Virus record (IMG/VR): IMGVR_UViG_3300030102_003440
Location: 1-39,889 of that record
Source of the DNA: a virus
Direction: 5' to 3' (one strand)
DNA: 39,889 nt
Shown here one piece after another: positions 18,401 to 24,975 of this stretch. The position numbers and the translations under genes were made by a program. The notes beneath the pieces were generated by a model that was not told where the DNA came from, made no database searches, and saw only the letters and a list, made by a program, of their open reading frames with translations. Positions within the stretch are counted from its first letter, which is position 1. Each line of letters begins with the position of its first letter.

Positions 18401-18961
18401 TTAAGACCTCTTAATTGGTAAATTTGCTGACCCCCCTATTCTAATACCATTTAGATATTGATCCACAATCGGAGGGATACGATCAACACCAGTTCTGCCA
18501 TAAAAGTTAGGAGTTATATTTATATCACCAAGACTTAACGATTGAAAATCTTCTAAACCACTTAATCCTAAACCGTCTTTGTTGTTATTTAAATAAACTG
18601 CAAGATGAATCTGAGCATGCTTTACTCTTTCTGGAATCTCAGTATCTGTATAATAATCATCAATAATTCTATAGGGAAAACTTATTGAATATAAATGATT
18701 GTGCTGATCAGGTACACGAACCCCGCTTCTGGGCCACTGCAAAGCTTGTGTTTTATTTACCCTAGACCCTTGAAAGTTTTCACGATCAATTCTCTGAGTG
18801 CTTGTAAATAAAGCTCTGTTTCTTTGGTCCGTAGTACTTGTCCCCCACGCTACAACATCATCAGATTCAGTTAGCCCATCAATAAAGGCTTGTGCTTGGT
18901 CTAATGTGACATAGCTGTTAGCTGAAGCACTCCCTACTGTAGCTACTATGGAAATTGCCAT
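18401..18961 (-). CDS. Head-tail adaptor (connector), DnaT-like phage family
   Basis: The 186-residue protein opens with ANSYVTLDQAQAFIDG (about 14-29). It has AWGTSTTDQRNRALFTSTQR near 40-58 and the hallmark ALQWPRSGV (about 72-81). A helix with PERVKHAQIHLAVYL follows near 108-124. This is the pattern of the phage family often labelled putative DnaT-like, which acts as the adaptor ring below the portal. The position downstream of the capsid genes fits. It overlaps a 47-residue gene by one base (TAATG). Confidence 0.75.
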   Translation of the reverse strand: MAISIVATVGSASANSYVTLDQAQAFIDGLTESDDVVAWGTSTTDQRNRALFTSTQRIDRENFQGSRVNKTQALQWPRSGVRVPDQHNHLYSISFPYRIIDDYYTDTEIPERVKHAQIHLAVYLNNNKDGLGLSGLEDFQSLSLGDINITPNFYGRTGVDRIPPIVDQYLNGIRIGGSANLPIKRS

Positions 18962-19104
18962 TACTTTAATTTTTTAGCTTGCTGTTTCATTGCTGAATGA
19001 ACAGATTTTTTATTTTTTGACGGTGTTTTTTTTACATTAGAAATAGAGGCCACTTTTTTAGCAGCCTCACGTTCTCTAAATCGCCTAAAAGTTGCGATGC
19101 TCAT
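18961..19104 (-). CDS. Tiny basic protein (47 aa)
   Basis: The ATG at 19104 immediately follows the decoration-like gene's stop. The product begins MSIATFRRFREREAAKK and ends with a Lys/Ser-rich tail (KKTPSKNKKSVHS, then MKQQAKKLK). It resembles in composition the polycationic small genes at 21323-22442. The stop overlaps the adaptor's ATG by one base, which favours real translation. Function unknown. Confidence 0.65.
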   Translation of the reverse strand: MSIATFRRFREREAAKKVASISNVKKTPSKNKKSVHSAMKQQAKKLK

Positions 19105-19482
19105 TTATTTTCTAAATGCACTTACAGCAGTAGAACTTGTTACTCTCACTAAGAAAGTACCAGAACTAGCAGCTGCAACATCAGCATCACCAACAATAGT
19201 GACTCCAGAACCAGCAGTCAAAGTAAACTTATGAGTTGAGGTTGCCTTGTTGACAATCGTTAATTCAAAAGTTTGACCCACCCCACCTTGAGTACCTAAA
19301 GCAGATATTAAAGCTGCTGCGGTAGGTGTTGTTATTGCTCTGTTTCCTGTTGGAGTTCCATCAACAATGCCTTCAATCATTTCAGCAGTTGTTAATGTGT
19401 GCGCTCCATTTTCAGTCTTTATAACTTTAGTTTTAGTTAATTGACCGAAAGCTGGATTTTGTAACTCAAAAAGAGTAGCCAT
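19105..19482 (-). CDS. Capsid decoration-like virion protein
   Basis: A 125-residue Ala/Thr-rich beta protein directly downstream of the major capsid gene. It has TGNRAITTPTAAALISAL in the first half and a beta-sandwich-like half (FELTIVNKATSTHKFTLTA, then GTFLVRVTSSTAV). This position and composition suit a head decoration or stabilising protein. I recall similar proteins next to capsid genes of marine phages, but this is pattern-based. Confidence 0.55.
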   Translation of the reverse strand: MATLFELQNPAFGQLTKTKVIKTENGAHTLTTAEMIEGIVDGTPTGNRAITTPTAAALISALGTQGGVGQTFELTIVNKATSTHKFTLTAGSGVTIVGDADVAAASSGTFLVRVTSSTAVSAFRK

Positions 19483-19517: not shown

Positions 19518-20555
19518 TTAATCGTTGTTTGAGACAACGGTAGCGCGTACAATCCCTATATTTTTTGTTTCGTAAACTTTCGACCAAGAGCCTACTGTTT
19601 CAAGAACTGATCTTGTTGGATTAACTGTAGTTACGTTATATTTAAGCCCTACAGGGTGATAAATATAATGCAAATCAATTGCCATTGCTTCTTCTAAAGC
19701 AAGAATATCTCTATCAGTTTGTGTCCTTATTGGAGCCTGTTCGCCAGTTACGACAGATCCTTGAGAGAACATAAACACGCTGTACTCAGTGGAAGCTCCA
19801 GTCCCTGCAGTTGGAATATCATCTGAAACTATTACATTGAGTCCCATGAATTGACCAAAATTCGGATTTTCAAAGGCCCCTTGAATTGTTCCACCTGAAG
19901 CAGTAGCACCACCGCCATTAATATCAGTAGCAGCAACAAAATCAACTGCATTTCTTTCTACCAAATCGTAGTAGCACTTACTGTGCATTGCGATTGATGT
20001 AAGCTTAGAACCTTGATCACCTAATAAAGACTGAGCCTTTGCAACGTGTCTAGGAGCTAATGCAGTAGGTGTATCACCATTTTCACTATCAATAGTTAAT
20101 TCAAACAATGCTGAATTACTATCGTTGTTATTTAATGAACCAAAAGCACCAGTTAAACAAGCATACAAATCTTTTTGTTTTTGATTATTGATGTATGCTG
20201 CAGTCTTTTGAGCAATAGCAGCCATTGGATCAGTACTGTTACCAACTGCTAATGCAGCTAAATCACGCGAGCTGAAAGCTCTACCTCTATGAAGAACAGC
20301 TGCTATTTGATTATCAGCTGAAATTTTTGAAGGTGTTAATGAAGTTGAATCTGTAAGAACTTCAAAATCACCAGATAAATTTGCCTTATAAAAAGGTATG
20401 CGAACAAAATCGCCCCCCCTATCAGCAGAAAGATTTAATTCAGCCAAAGGTTGCACAACACCACTTTGCAGAAAAGAATCTGTTTGAGTAGTGGCCTCTA
20501 CTAAGTAGGGCGAGAAAACTTCTGGAACAATTAAATCACTACGGACTGTAGCCAT
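19518..20555 (-). CDS. Major capsid protein
   Basis: A 345-residue protein of the HK97-fold capsid class resembling the P2-type/gp13-like coat family. The N-terminus is MATVRSDLIVPEVFSPYLVE. Near residues 60-100 it reads FYKANLSGDFEVLTDSTS and LHRGRAFSSRDLAALA. The central MHSKCYYDLVERNAVDFV segment is followed by FENPNFGQFMGLNVIVSDD and a C-terminal GLKYNVTTVNPT region, all typical of this family. It is preceded by a scaffold-like gene and followed by a decoration-like gene. No protease gene is seen nearby. Confidence 0.92.
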   Translation of the reverse strand: MATVRSDLIVPEVFSPYLVEATTQTDSFLQSGVVQPLAELNLSADRGGDFVRIPFYKANLSGDFEVLTDSTSLTPSKISADNQIAAVLHRGRAFSSRDLAALAVGNSTDPMAAIAQKTAAYINNQKQKDLYACLTGAFGSLNNNDSNSALFELTIDSENGDTPTALAPRHVAKAQSLLGDQGSKLTSIAMHSKCYYDLVERNAVDFVAATDINGGGATASGGTIQGAFENPNFGQFMGLNVIVSDDIPTAGTGASTEYSVFMFSQGSVVTGEQAPIRTQTDRDILALEEAMAIDLHYIYHPVGLKYNVTTVNPTRSVLETVGSWSKVYETKNIGIVRATVVSNND

Positions 20556-20621: not shown

Positions 20622-21296
20622 TTAACCCTTAACTGCATTTTTGAGCATATTAAATTTTTCTACATTATATTTTGCCAGTCTGCCTTGCTCAGTAAGGTTA
20701 AAACTTTCTTGAGCAAAAGGATTCTTTTCACCAGCCTTAAGATATTCTGTTTGCACTCTTGAAGTAGTAGCTCCACTGCCTTGAGGTCTTGGGTATTTTT
20801 GCGCCCATGTAGGAATATTAGACAATGCCCACTCCTTAACAGGAGTTCTGTTATATCCATCTACAACTACAACTGTTCCATCAGCCTCTCTTTCTAATTG
20901 TTCTCTATTTATTTGACTAAGAGCATATTTAGGATCATGCACCACATCAGCCAAAGCTGTAACAGCTGGAGCCTCAATTTCTAATTGTCTTTTCTCTGCC
21001 ATTAATTTTTCAATTTGTTGCTTTTGCATTGCTTCTGCCTCTCGAAATTGCTGCGCTTGTTTTGCAATAGCTTCTTCGTATCTTCCTTTAGCTTCAAGCT
21101 CTTCTTGTTCTTTCTGTTGTTTAAATGCAATTAAAGCGTTGACATCTACATCATCAGGAATTGCTTTTGCTTTATCCATTGCCTTTCCATATTGCTCCAT
21201 CAATGCTTTGTTATTAGCCTCCAACTTTCTAACGCTTTCTTTTAAAGCTTCGACTTCTTGAGGTGAGGGATTTGGTTTAATTGGTTCTTCTGCCAT
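20622..21296 (-). CDS. Capsid scaffolding protein
   Basis: A 224-residue, highly charged, largely helical protein directly upstream of the major capsid gene. Residues about 12-115 form a coiled coil rich in Glu, Lys and Gln (ESVRKLEANNKALMEQYGK, EAMQKQQIEKLMAEKRQ). A C-terminal part near 145-200 contains PVKEWALSNIPTWAQKYP. Composition and position are those of internal scaffolds that direct procapsid assembly and leave before packaging. Confidence 0.8.
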   Translation of the reverse strand: MAEEPIKPNPSPQEVEALKESVRKLEANNKALMEQYGKAMDKAKAIPDDVDVNALIAFKQQKEQEELEAKGRYEEAIAKQAQQFREAEAMQKQQIEKLMAEKRQLEIEAPAVTALADVVHDPKYALSQINREQLEREADGTVVVVDGYNRTPVKEWALSNIPTWAQKYPRPQGSGATTSRVQTEYLKAGEKNPFAQESFNLTEQGRLAKYNVEKFNMLKNAVKG

Positions 21297-21322: not shown

Positions 21323-21604
21323 TTAGCTCCATTTCTCAACATTAGCCCAATATGCTGCTGACATTTTGCCCTTTTTAATATTTTTAGCGTGTCTAGCCTT
21401 AAAACTTTTGCGTTTTGCCTTATCTGCTTCAGATTCTCCCTTTCTTGGTGGTTTATTCTTCGCTCCTTGCATGCCAAAGCGAATTAGTTTGACCTTATCG
21501 CCTACTTTTGCCAAGACAACATGTGATTTTGTCGGATGTGAAGGAGTTCTTTTAGGTTTATTAAAACCAGATAATCCAAATCTTTTAAGTCTGGGATCAC
21601 TCAT
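21323..21604 (-). CDS. Small basic phage protein with KPKRTPSHPTKSHVVLAK motif (93 aa)
   Basis: The sequence opens DPRLKRFGLSGFNKPKRTP, continues with KSHVVLAKVGDKVKLIRFGMQGA, and ends with a Lys/Arg-rich KRKSFKARHAKNIKKGKMSA helix and a Trp motif (YWANVEKW). I recall this family from marine phages, always uncharacterised. A strand-rich first half plus a basic helical second half suggests nucleic-acid binding, but this is inference. The start overlaps the preceding small gene's stop (ATGA). It is the last gene of the small basic cassette before the scaffold. Confidence 0.75.
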   Translation of the reverse strand: MSDPRLKRFGLSGFNKPKRTPSHPTKSHVVLAKVGDKVKLIRFGMQGAKNKPPRKGESEADKAKRKSFKARHAKNIKKGKMSAAYWANVEKWS

Positions 21605-21756
21605 TTTCCTTTCTTTCTCATAGCTAATCTATGCGCCTCTGTAAATGACATTCCTTCTCTCATCTTACGTTTCATATACTCCATATGGGCCTTTGTATGA
21701 CCATGCGTTTGCTGATGTTTTTTAAGAGTGTTCTTTTGTCTAATTGTTAGTTTCAT
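21601..21756 (-). CDS. Tiny Lys/His-rich helical protein (51 aa)
   Basis: Start ATG at 21756 and stop TGA at 21601-21603, both in 4-nt ATGA overlaps with the neighbouring genes. The product begins MKLTIRQKNTLKKHQQTHGH, continues KAHMEYMKRKMREGMSFTEA and ends HRLAMRKKGK. This looks like a recurrent small phage family with a helix-loop-helix pattern and a final basic tail. Function unknown; the double overlap strongly supports translation. Confidence 0.75.
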   Translation of the reverse strand: MKLTIRQKNTLKKHQQTHGHTKAHMEYMKRKMREGMSFTEAHRLAMRKKGK

Positions 21757-22037
21757 TTTTTCTTTTTCCTCTTGCTCAATAAATCAGAGTCAGCTTTTCT
21801 AGCTCCACCATCACCAGTTATGAAACTATTGACTCTGCCCATAGCCCATGCACCCATAGCGACATTTCTTGATCCACCAGACAAGTATGCCCCCTGACCT
21901 CTTCTATAAACAGCCTTCAGCTGAGTTAAAGTGAATTTTGATTTTTTGGCTTTGGCTTTAAGTGTTTTCACAGTAGTGGCACTTAAAGGACTAGCGGGCG
22001 GAGCTTTTTTTGCGCTTTTTCTTTTTCTTGGAGCCAT
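21753..22037 (-). CDS. Small basic protein, DUF5824-like (94 aa)
   Basis: A Lys/Arg-rich N-terminus (MAPRKRKSAKKAPPASPLS) precedes a conserved core: TLTQLKAVYRRGQGAYLSGG, then AWAMGRVNSFITG and a D-S-D-L-L motif, ending KRKKKK. I recall this core as the DUF5824-type family in large and marine phages; the number is from memory and should be treated as tentative. The start lies 47 nt inside the preceding gene and the stop overlaps the next start (ATGA). Confidence 0.75.
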   Translation of the reverse strand: MAPRKRKSAKKAPPASPLSATTVKTLKAKAKKSKFTLTQLKAVYRRGQGAYLSGGSRNVAMGAWAMGRVNSFITGDGGARKADSDLLSKRKKKK

Positions 22038-22218
22038 CTTGATTAGTTCGTGATTTTGATACAGCCTTAATATCTATAAACTCTCCTCTCTTATATGCTG
22101 CGGATGTTCGTTTTATCTCCGCTGCTTTTGCACTTTTATTTTTAGCACCACTAAGATATTTCTTAGCAACACCAGTTGTTTTATCCTTTGCTACTTTTCT
22201 AAACTTTCTTTTTTTCAC
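21991..22218 (-). CDS. Small polycationic protein with KKYLSGAKN motif (75 aa)
   Basis: Starts with GTG at 22218, which overlaps the previous tiny gene's TGA (GTGA). The sequence MKKRKFRKVAKDKTTGVAKK is followed by YLSGAKNKSAKAAEIKRTSA and AYKRGEF, then a Lys-run C-terminus (SKKKKKRKKSSAR). The KYLSG...AAEIKRT...AYKRG pattern is one I associate with uncharacterised phage proteins. Very high Lys/Arg content suggests binding to nucleic acid or another polyanion (inference). Confidence 0.7.
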   Translation of the reverse strand: MKKRKFRKVAKDKTTGVAKKYLSGAKNKSAKAAEIKRTSAAYKRGEFIDIKAVSKSRTNQDGSKKKKKRKKSSAR

Positions 22219-22274
22219 TTCTTTTTAACTTTTTTTAGTTTTACTTTTTTTGTTTTTTTGGGAGTTCCGTACAT
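22215..22274 (-). CDS. Micro-protein MYGTPKK-type (19 aa)
   Basis: ATG at 22274 with GAGG 8 nt upstream, one of the clearer ribosome-binding sites in the cassette. The product is MYGTPKKTKKVKLKKVKKK, with ten lysines in nineteen residues. Its TGA overlaps the GTG start of the next gene. It may be a real micro-protein or mainly a translational coupler for the downstream gene. Confidence 0.5.
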   Translation of the reverse strand: MYGTPKKTKKVKLKKVKKK

Positions 22275-22310
22275 AATTTGACCCTCGTGAGATATGTAAC
22301 TGATCCCATA

Positions 22311-22442
22311 TTACTTCCTTTTGCGTTTTTTAGCACTTGATAATGCTATTGCTTGTGCTTGTTTTAAAGTTTTACCTTCTTTCATTAACAGCTTAATATT
22401 TGCGCTAATGGCTTTTTGTGACTTTCCTTTTTTTAGTGGCAT
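22311..22442 (-). CDS. Small Lys-rich protein MPLKKGKSQKAIS type (43 aa)
   Basis: The ATG at 22442 overlaps the previous gene's TAA and the stop is at 22311. The product reads MPLKKGKSQKAISANIKLLM, then KEGKTLKQAQAIALSSAKKR and a basic end. It belongs to a recurrent pattern of small phage proteins (PLKKGKSQK...I..NI..L...G....QA.AIAL..A) of unknown function. Fourteen of 43 residues are Lys or Arg, with a probable amphipathic helix. Confidence 0.75.
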   Translation of the reverse strand: MPLKKGKSQKAISANIKLLMKEGKTLKQAQAIALSSAKKRKRK

Positions 22443-22633
22443 TAGGATAAATGCTTTTCTATTAACTCAAAATCTTTTTCAGTATTAGCAGCAACCATTA
22501 AAGCTTCGATAGCTCTTCCAATATCTACTTTTTCCATGCCTTTAGCTTTATTATATTCCAGCTTGATAAGTCTAGGAACATCTTTGTTCTTAGGGAACTG
22601 GCTTATAAGTTTAATGACTGTATCGTAACTCAT
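22442..22633 (-). CDS. Small helical protein after the MuF gene (63 aa)
   Basis: The best start is the ATG at 22633 (MSYDTVIKLISQFPKNKDVP), two bases past the MuF stop; the longer frame would overlap the MuF gene. The rest (RLIKLEYNKAKGMEKVDIGR, then AIEALMVAANTEKDFELIEK) is predicted to be helical, without the extreme basicity of the following genes. I do not recognise it. The stop overlaps the next ATG (TAATG), so it is coupled to the small basic cassette. Confidence 0.7.
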   Translation of the reverse strand: MSYDTVIKLISQFPKNKDVPRLIKLEYNKAKGMEKVDIGRAIEALMVAANTEKDFELIEKHLS

Positions 22634-22635
22634 GG

Positions 22636-24975
22636 TTAAATTGGAGCATCTAAAGCAGCAGCCAGAGTCTCCTCCACCCACTTGTAAGCATTAGGTGATG
22701 CTTTCTTTAATTCTACAGGATCAAATACATATTGCACAAAAGTCTCTGCAAACTGTTCCATAAAGTTGCTTCCACCATACCTACTTGGAATCCATTGAGT
22801 GCCAGTCATAGCAGTTCTACCAGCAGCAAAATGCACTTGATGACCCATTTCATGCACCCAAGTTGTAAGCCAAGATTCCTCTGTATGTAATTTTAATCTT
22901 CTATCTAAAGGATTTTTTGCATTACTGAGCCTTAATTTATATAGTTTAGAATCAACGTTTCCTTGTGGTGTGCCTTTTGCAGATTCTAGTATGCTTTGTT
23001 TGACGGATTCTCTAACTTTTGTAAGATTTTTAATTTTTTTATGTGTTGGTCGTAGCCTTACATTAATATGATTCGCACCTTGCATAGTAAAGCCGCCAAC
23101 ATCACTCTTAGATTTGCCTAAAGTAAAGTATCTTTCAAACAAGTTAGCTCCATAGCCTGTCATATTATCTAAACCATCTTTTAATTCATCTATCTTTCCA
23201 AGCATTGAGGCAGTTCTTTGTTTGTTTTTAAACATTGATCCACCAGTCAAGGGATCTATACCAAAACCATCTTTGACATTAGTAAGACCTCTATCTTGTG
23301 CCATTTGCAAACTCTTTCTAAGCTGTTGATTTTCTTTCAAGAATTTTAGATTTTCTGCAACTTTTCTAAAGTTTCCTCTTGTTTCACCACCAGAGGTAAA
23401 TGAACAGAAAACCTCTCTTTGCTCTGTAAACCTTCTTAGTTTCCTAGCGTTCTCCCCTGCAAGACCTTCCATCTGATCCATCAAATCAAATGTTGCATTG
23501 ACATCTTTAGGTTGTATTTTTGCTTTTGGTGATATACCTGATAACTGAGCAATAGTTGGTTTTGTTGGATCTCTGTCTTTAAGAATCTTAAGTTCTGCCT
23601 TTGCTTTTCTTTCAGCAGCCCTCGCAGCCTTTAGTGTTTCCTCAAGCTTATCTTGATTAGTGATAGTAATTGTTGGCTTAGTAACTGGCTTGGGTTTTGG
23701 TATCTTGATTGTTATATCACTAGGCTTGCCATATAGCCTTTGCAAGTCCGTAAGACTTCTCTCGCTGCCATCTTCCCTTACAAGTTTTCTAATCGCCTTC
23801 TGTCCTGATCCTTCTTTCTTTGCCAACCTTTTAAAATAATTTACCTTGCCTTCATTGCCTAAAGTTTTAATCTGTAGCTTTTTATCTTGCTTCAATAACC
23901 AATCACCATAAGATGTTCCCTGTGGTACTCTGCCAGTTCCTTCTCCTGTGGGTCTAGTGACAACTTTGCCTTTTGGTGGCGGTGTTAGATCTTCAAATCC
24001 TTTTCTTTTACTTAATCCCTCATAGTCAACAACAGGAACAGTAGTAGATCGACAATTAAAATGCTGTGGTGGTGTCGGGCCTTTGTTATATGCAAACTTT
24101 TGTCCATCAAGCCTTCTACAAATTGGGCTGGTTCTACTGTCCAAAGTTGCAACATATTCGTATTTGGGAGCTACCTTACTATTTGCTGCATAAACAGCCT
24201 GTGATGCCTGATTTTGTACTTGATTAACAGATGTTCTGACTATTGTTTGCACCTGATAATTTGCAAGTTTCGTAAGTTCTCCCCCTGCGGCTGCAATCTG
24301 TCTTACACTTCCTTTCTGCCCAAATTCAAGTCTGCCAACCATACGTCTTGCTATCTCTGCTGTTGATTCTCCACTAAATACCCCTTGCCTGATATGTCTT
24401 GCTAAAGCATCTTTCTGCCTTTCTGCTATCCCTCTAAATGCTTTCTCTACTGTTTGCCCATTAGGTAAAGTCTGCATTGCTCCTTGTCTTGCGGTAAGTT
24501 CAAACTTACCAGAACCAAATCTTTTGAAATCATCTTCTGTAAATTCTTTACTGGTAAAAATATTGACTTGAGTTGGATCTGTTTTTACAAAAGACTCTGC
24601 ATATTTCCTACTTACAGCAACAGAATTTATTGGAACATTACCAGATTTTACAACTTTTTTTAATTCGTTTTCTATAAATCCAGCTTGTACTTTTGCTAAA
24701 CCCTCAATCTCTTTAATCATTCTTTTTGAAGTTTCTCTTTCCCACATATCTAAACTTATCTTTGACTGTTGAATTATTGCCCTTAATCTTTTTCTTGTCT
24801 GTGGTGCAACAACAACCCCTGCCCCAGCTTGTGCTTGTCTAATATTTATTTCTTTAAGCTTTCTTGCAGCAAGTAAAATAACGTCATTATAAGTTTTTAC
24901 AAAATCCTTTGCTACAGCATTACTATATCTGTTTAAATCAATAGTTTCTCTGAAAAATGCTTCTGGGATACTCAT
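22636..24975 (-). CDS. MuF-type head morphogenesis protein fused to a zincin metallopeptidase domain
   Basis: The 779-residue protein has a MuF minor head domain at about 190-320: ALARHIRQGVFSGESTAEIA, VQTIVRTSVNQVQNQA, then YEYVATLDSRTSPICRRLDG and HFNCRSTTVP. A linker with Lys/Pro-rich and coiled segments follows (about 340-520). The C-terminal domain carries H708-E-M-G-H712 and a downstream FMEQFAETF (E740/E744), the layout of a gluzincin-type zinc protease. MuF fusions to toxin or enzyme domains are known in temperate phages, with the effector injected at infection. Here a protease acting in the new host, or in head maturation, is inferred. It directly follows the portal. Confidence 0.88.
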   Translation of the reverse strand: MSIPEAFFRETIDLNRYSNAVAKDFVKTYNDVILLAARKLKEINIRQAQAGAGVVVAPQTRKRLRAIIQQSKISLDMWERETSKRMIKEIEGLAKVQAGFIENELKKVVKSGNVPINSVAVSRKYAESFVKTDPTQVNIFTSKEFTEDDFKRFGSGKFELTARQGAMQTLPNGQTVEKAFRGIAERQKDALARHIRQGVFSGESTAEIARRMVGRLEFGQKGSVRQIAAAGGELTKLANYQVQTIVRTSVNQVQNQASQAVYAANSKVAPKYEYVATLDSRTSPICRRLDGQKFAYNKGPTPPQHFNCRSTTVPVVDYEGLSKRKGFEDLTPPPKGKVVTRPTGEGTGRVPQGTSYGDWLLKQDKKLQIKTLGNEGKVNYFKRLAKKEGSGQKAIRKLVREDGSERSLTDLQRLYGKPSDITIKIPKPKPVTKPTITITNQDKLEETLKAARAAERKAKAELKILKDRDPTKPTIAQLSGISPKAKIQPKDVNATFDLMDQMEGLAGENARKLRRFTEQREVFCSFTSGGETRGNFRKVAENLKFLKENQQLRKSLQMAQDRGLTNVKDGFGIDPLTGGSMFKNKQRTASMLGKIDELKDGLDNMTGYGANLFERYFTLGKSKSDVGGFTMQGANHINVRLRPTHKKIKNLTKVRESVKQSILESAKGTPQGNVDSKLYKLRLSNAKNPLDRRLKLHTEESWLTTWVHEMGHQVHFAAGRTAMTGTQWIPSRYGGSNFMEQFAETFVQYVFDPVELKKASPNAYKWVEETLAAALDAPI

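Follow-up and report, generated by a model that had tools for sequence, protein, structure and literature searches.

Phage T4 has ~300 copies of each of its basic internal proteins, which bind DNA when salt is low and are recovered together with the scaffold protein gp22 (PMC9026906). They vary between relatives, and part of their action takes place after ejection (PMC9026906). MuF proteins with fused effector domains and polyvalent proteins are multi-domain proteins that are packaged in the head (Iyer et al. 2017, PMC5512222). The annotation of a giant algal virus includes DUF5754 and DUF5872 proteins (PMC12085832).

Here we describe a cassette of seven small ORFs (g1-g7) in the head operon of a marine phage that, judged by its relatives, is a siphocyanophage. 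The window refers to the whole stretch of DNA that was analysed, a 39.9-kb virus record (39,889 nucleotides). Six of the seven cassette proteins are small and basic, as are the T4 internal proteins IPI, IPII and IPIII and the core proteins gp67 and gp68, which assemble with the scaffold core. However, no sequence relation to the T4 proteins was found, the T4-type L/I-x-E cleavage/targeting motif is absent from g2-g7 and from a further basic protein of the operon (p47), and no dedicated prohead protease was present among the head operon genes checked in the window. The cassette families are also conserved far more widely and strongly than the T4 internal proteins. Any likeness between the two would be one of function. 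The cassette shares with MuF and polyvalent proteins a g7 match inside phrog_220, a family that also holds the MuF region, whereas the domains in the window stand alone, are very small and basic, and carry no recognised enzymatic motif.

Results

Gene content of the head operon

The major capsid protein of the window (19518-20555; SPP1 gp13-like, PF20036, phrog_247; net charge -14) is 81% identical to that of the Prochlorococcus phages MED4-117 and MED4-184/P-HS2. The head operon lies on the minus strand, as do all features described below, and encodes terminase, portal, MuF, the cassette, scaffold, the SPP1-type capsid protein, a decoration-like protein, p47 and an adaptor. Upstream of the cassette lies the MuF/SPP1 gp7-like minor head protein (22636-24975; 779 aa, net +49) and downstream the scaffold (20622-21296; phrog_206). 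The decoration-like head protein (19105-19482) matches phrog_673 weakly. The MuF protein is unusually long at 779 aa and has a zincin-like HEMGHQVHF motif (HExxH region) at its C-terminus; in MED4-117, the region matching it is split into two separate genes.

Between MuF and scaffold, all seven small ORFs that a preliminary description had placed there are present, with 63, 43, 19, 75, 94, 51 and 93 codons. The first, g1 (22442-22633), encodes 63 aa with a net charge of +1, belongs to phrog_36872, follows directly after MuF and is patchy among relatives. It is followed by g2 (22311-22442; 43 aa, net +13) and by g3 (22215-22274; net +10), a micro-protein of the 'M-YG-(P)-Lys-rich' type with ten lysines in its nineteen residues, as had been reported. 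The remaining genes are g4 (21991-22218; 75 aa, GTG start, net +24), g5 (21753-22037; 94 aa, net +22), g6 (21601-21756; 51 aa, net +12, with a conserved His/Met pattern) and g7 (21323-21604; 93 aa, net +20). Six of the seven are thus strongly basic (net +10 to +24), in agreement with the preliminary description, and g1 alone is neutral. The additional basic 47-residue gene noted previously, p47 (18961-19104; net +13), was likewise found between the decoration-like gene and the head-tail adaptor Ad1. It is known only from this phage group, where its position is kept, and profile searches with p47 gave no family match.

The genes had been described as packed with ATGA, GTGA or TAATG overlaps. 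This holds for g1/g2 (TAATG), g3/g4 (GTGA), g5/g6 and g6/g7 (both ATGA), but g2 and g3 are separated by a 36-nt gap and g4 and g5 overlap by 47 nt, more than had been claimed. The gaps to the flanking genes are 2 nt at MuF/g1 and 26 nt at g7/scaffold.

Selection and recurrence of the small ORFs

Pairwise dN/dS was determined within the related phage group, and medians are given here. The values were 0.06 for g6, 0.09 for g2, 0.10 for g7, 0.135 for g4, 0.24 for g5, 0.27 for g1 and 0.33 for p47, with the values for g4 and g5 both affected at the end where these genes overlap. The capsid and scaffold genes of the same group gave 0.084 and 0.086. Because g3 is too short for dN/dS, its recurrence was used instead: a homologue of 17-28 aa (M..YG..(KP)K-rich) is present in 56 of 56 loci in which g2 and g4 flank it, a count that is not fully independent since a few of these loci share one contig. 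The cassette ORFs are therefore genuine genes on which purifying selection acts, given dN/dS of 0.06-0.24 for g2 and g4-g7 and the invariable recurrence of g3. In the MED4-117 record, g2 and g3 have no annotated gene.

At many g3 loci, a second tiny gene (21-57 aa) comes next, and a GGAGG-like ribosome site lies inside the end of the g3 homologue. At two loci (L129 and L130), this second gene reaches 57 aa and contains a SAP/HeH-like helical segment; its PHROG matches are weak and include a prohead protease inhibitor family (E 4e-4).

Protein families and predicted structures

Full-length PHROG matches were obtained for g2 (phrog_2423, E 1.6e-16), g4 (phrog_38321, E 8e-28), g5 (phrog_28338, E 1.8e-26), g6 (phrog_31838, E 1.1e-30) and g7 (phrog_7595, E 4.4e-40). 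The earlier proposal that several of the genes belong to recurrent, uncharacterised phage families is therefore borne out for most of them, but the label 'marine' is too narrow, as g2 also occurs in phages of Acinetobacter, Pseudomonas, Caulobacter and Enterobacter. The cassette families are known here only as PHROGs or DUFs without assigned function. Full-text searches met the DUF names only in two genome descriptions, and no account of the cassette families as one set or in connection with prohead proteases was found in the open-access literature searched.

With 31 bits (E 3.1e-7), g5 exceeds the curated 25-bit cutoff of DUF5824 (PF19141). Against the Pfam profile DUF6321, g7 scored 16.9, below the cutoff of 28.5, and no DUF5754 match was listed in Pfam for the g7 of the window. 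Among g7 homologues, the best E-values were 0.0016 (DUF6321) and 0.0024 (DUF5754), and 31 of 93 homologues touched DUF5754 below the cutoff, which indicates a remote relation. As compared to the giant-virus DUF5824, DUF5754 and DUF5872 proteins, then, g5 passes the DUF5824 cutoff and g7 is related to DUF5754 only remotely. Pfam and NCBIfam profiles of HU, IHF, H-NS and Dps gave no match to the cassette, and no sequence relation of the cassette proteins to any characterised or solved protein was found.

Three further assignments were rejected. A match of g5 to P2 gpU/pyocin ripcord reached 14.5 bits (E 0.029) against a cutoff of 27.5 bits and E 0.23 in the PDB, and the g5 model is helical. A TALE-like PDB match of g2 (E 0.31) is attributable to chance from repeat composition. 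Matches of g7 to ribosomal L24 and to baseplate proteins had E-values of 0.24 or worse.

For g7, a high-confidence model (pLDDT 93.7, pTM 0.83) shows a beta hairpin followed by three helices. The helical g5 model is of lower confidence (pLDDT 75.5, pTM 0.61). Searches of the PDB with Foldseek and VIA-align gave no usable match for g7 (none with Z >=2) or for g5 (best Z 2.8), which in neither case is proof of a new fold. No solved structure in the PDB resembles g5 or g7 well enough to hint at a mechanism. Among viral predicted structures, the g7 model matched an XkdF protein of an uncultured phage, a 'ChaB' protein and Vibrio phage ICP1 ORF125; a match to a Tunisvirus protein was weak (E 0.012).

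Fusions to prohead proteases and MuF-class proteins

Two cassette families occur elsewhere as domains of head maturation proteases. In Acinetobacter obolenskviruses, the g2 domain forms the N-terminus of the head maturation protease: in phage AP22, residues 1-40 of ORF28 match phrog_2423, the g2 family (E 2e-15), and the rest of the protein matches the head maturation protease family phrog_2229 (E 2e-139); an annotated capsid gene lies two genes downstream. In ICP1, ORF125 is an XkdF-type protease (PF14550, E 6.6e-10) whose residues 184-261 correspond to the g7 domain (phrog_7595, E 5.8e-11; hhalign 93%, E 2.6e-7). ORF125 lies within the head operon, upstream of ORF124 and of the decoration and capsid genes. 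A further match of the window's g7 (E 3.2e-6) falls inside phrog_220, the 'minor head protein and DNA pilot' family, whose later part is matched by the window's MuF.

By these profile matches, g2 and g7 are stand-alone forms of domains borne by prohead proteases elsewhere, g2 of the N-terminal domain of the obolenskvirus enzyme and g7 of the C-terminal domain of ICP1 ORF125. The window genes differ from ORF28 and ORF125 in that the shared domains are separate, small and strongly basic, with the accessory domain alone and no protease domain (XkdF/S78_2, phrog_2229) in the same chain. Prohead proteases act inside the prohead in other phages. The fusions of both outer basic families are the strongest clue to the prohead.

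Apparent fusions of g7 into long ORFs at two loci (L045 and L068) were discarded, since an upstream open frame is read through there to a clear ATG. In pelagiphage HTVC008M, the g5 domain (DUF5824, E 1e-18) forms the C-terminus of a 596-aa cytidylyltransferase-like protein (L302, 2450-4240).

Gene order and neighbourhoods

Among relatives of the Prochlorococcus siphophages MED4-117 and P-HS2, the order portal-MuF-(g1)-g2-g3-g4-g5-g6-g7-scaffold-capsid-p47 is maintained apart from some losses and insertions. A conserved adjacency, which the preliminary description had proposed to look for, is thus present. Outside the group, the orders g7-g4-g5, g7-g6-g4-g5, portal-g5-g7-MuF, g6-g7 and g7-g6 were observed. 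When loci outside the group were fetched by g7 alone, a second cassette family was nearby in 25 of the 69 viral loci and 11 of the 52 genome loci, in all instances on the same strand and mostly within 3 kb. A tally of the families of 146 genes near g7 in unrelated phages gave chiefly P22-type stabilisation/head-closure proteins (12), portals, large terminases and MuF. DUF5872, head-tail adaptors and head maturation protease were also counted, and none of the 25 commonest families was a tail family. In Enterobacter phage phiEap-2, g2 lies between MuF and scaffold. Most cassette families therefore recur, rearranged, beside head and packaging genes of unrelated phages. Together with the fusions to prohead proteases and MuF-class proteins, these neighbourhoods make the link to the head stronger than could be known from the sequence alone. 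In line with the suggestion that the genes be treated as one set, the six basic genes form a conserved set, but g1, being neutral and patchy, should not be counted. Some homologues lie away from head operons: a g7 in jumbo phage NCTB, a g2 in a tRNA region of phiCbK and the g5 domain of the HTVC008M protein described above.

Sets of small basic genes occupy head/packaging positions in T7-like cyanophage P-SCSP2, pelagiphage Hodr and HTVC031P (L303 3716-4694, L304 3148-4539 and L310 4355-4749), with families that include DUF5872, DUF6321, EF-hand-like and RGLYANIHAKRKR-type proteins. P-SCSP2 has g6 among five basic genes that lie between scaffold and capsid, and HTVC031P has two basic genes (+17 and +25) in the same interval. 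The sets of these T7-like cyanophages/pelagiphages resemble the cassette in position class and strong positive charge; P-SCSP2 has the g6 family in common with it, and the DUF6321 of the P-SCSP2 and HTVC031P sets is remotely related to g7. However, these two sets consist mostly of other families (DUF5872, EF-hand-like, phrog_27331 and RGLYANIHAKRKR-type). In T4-like cyanophage ACG-2014f, a DUF6321-like domain lies at the end of gp129 (839 aa; L308 2009-4528), whose gene is flanked by those of the small and large terminases.

Relatives show an insertion hot spot at the g6-g7 junction. Nucleic-acid-modification genes of three unrelated kinds were found at 15 loci (L014, L015, L018, L102, L105, L110, L186, L187, L188, L191, L193, L206, L211, L217 and L219): an N6/N4 DNA methylase (PF01555, E 5.9e-55), a Mom-family DNA modification protein (PF25680, E 2.1e-35) and a TRM-like methyltransferase (PF02005, E 4.4e-7). 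In Synechococcus phages KBS-S-2A (L002 6706-6930) and S-H1 (L003 6660-6884), one small basic protein replaces g3-g6 between the conserved g2 and g7. In KBS-S-2A this protein belongs to Hva1_TUDOR (PF11160, E 1.4e-9); on visual comparison, its S-H1 counterpart closely resembles it.

Such exchanges are what would be seen if the MuF-scaffold position were a slot that tolerates small cargo genes of mutually unrelated function. Gene loss, gain and replacement all occur there: the presence of g1 is patchy, a Hva1_TUDOR gene or its close homologue takes the place of g3-g6, and the modification genes enter at the g6-g7 junction. However, selection on g2, g4, g6 and g7 matches or approaches in strength that on the capsid protein, the order is kept, and the same families regroup on one strand in unrelated phages. 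We therefore regard a mere insertion slot as the most doubtful of the readings weighed here.

Charge of the cassette proteins

The six basic cassette genes have net charges of +0.22 to +0.53 per residue, as compared to a median of -0.008 and a maximum of +0.10 for the 46 other called genes in the window (Mann-Whitney p = 1.3e-5, with the neutral g1 and p47 counted in). Random codons at the base composition of the cassette gave a mean of +0.12 per residue and a 99th percentile of +0.26, and A-richness accounts for part of the charge. That the lysine content is a mere by-product of A-richness is only partly true, as the basic charge is kept in GC-rich phages: in phages with at least 50% GC, the median charge per residue of homologues was +0.14 for g7 (n=47) and +0.18 for g2 (n=19), still positive though somewhat lower. 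Every g7 match in 166 loci without the scaffold of this group had a charge of at least +0.11. Summed over one copy of each basic protein, the charge is +114; by arithmetic rather than measurement, it would take ~70 copies of each to neutralise 10% of the DNA phosphates.

The extreme positive charge would also suit late, non-virion nucleic-acid binders that act on the host nucleoid, RNA or ribosomes, with placement in the head operon serving for timing only. The weak similarity of the g7 profile to ribosomal L24 (E 0.24), the location of some homologues outside head operons and the weakly DNA-regulator/SAP-like gene in the cassettes of some relatives (L129/L130) are in line with this. However, fusion of the g2 and g7 families to head maturation proteases and to a MuF-class protein would be unexpected for such binders, as would head/packaging adjacency across unrelated phages. 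We found no evidence for the 'nucleoid-targeting factors' considered in the preliminary description; the fusions and the adjacency speak against host-directed factors, which we consider improbable.

When fused to proteases, the g2 and g7 domains carry almost no net charge (+1 each), which speaks against an action through bulk charge alone, and DNA contact is no general property of these folds. The g2 and g7 folds probably function in or around the prohead without need of such charge; that of the stand-alone proteins is probably a second property, separate from the function of the fold.

The near-neutral fused forms, together with the action of prohead proteases before packaging, are also consistent with cofactors of assembly alone, which would bind scaffold, portal, MuF or terminase and leave before maturation, with no role in the virion and no condensing of DNA. 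The cassette adjoins the scaffold gene, and the neighbours of g7 include terminase, portal and head-closure genes. The scaffolds of HTVC031P and P-SCSP2 are strongly acidic (-20 and -36) and could attract basic partners, but the window scaffold is only slightly acidic (-3). In addition, the set holds several distinct basic folds, more than a single cofactor would need. Assembly-only cofactors are a close competitor of the core-protein reading set out below, though the less likely of the two.

Discussion

Because the g2 and g7 domains are carried by prohead proteases and most of the cassette families adjoin head genes, the most likely location of the cassette proteins is inside the forming head. 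We give about an even chance to the reading that the cassette encodes small basic head-interior ('core') proteins that work there. The proteins would be made late from genes between MuF and scaffold, with translation probably coupled from one to another, and would enter the forming prohead together with scaffold, portal and MuF via the contacts that their folded domains make. Being positively charged, they would touch DNA during packaging, and some may travel into the next cell. Presence in the prohead or virion, contact with DNA and any role after ejection are what we infer for g2-g7. Searches of the literature on virion proteomes of g7 or g6 carriers (cobaviruses, P-SCSP1u, MPP-C phages and pelagiphages) yielded nothing on these proteins, and they found no virion proteomics or DNA-binding data for any cassette member.

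A broader reading is offered tentatively and is more doubtful than that of core proteins in this phage. The cassette may draw on an exchangeable 'prohead core kit', in which small basic domains are pooled and assorted in the head modules of sipho-, podo- and myophages and perhaps of giant viruses. The domains would stand alone or be fused to prohead proteases or MuF, and would organise the genome in the capsid or carry cargo. Its members might be g2, g3, g4, g5, g6, g7, DUF6321, DUF5872 and others. If it exists, such a kit would be to phages what chromatin proteins are to cells.

In the head operons of phages, small basic genes mostly stay labelled as hypothetical proteins or go without annotation. 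Several recurrent, uncharacterised families of aquatic phages are now tied to the prohead through domain fusions, and the core-protein reading is a concrete hypothesis that can be tested in an available laboratory pair, Prochlorococcus MED4 and P-HS2. Basic internal head proteins, which have been studied mainly in T4, could prove to be common.
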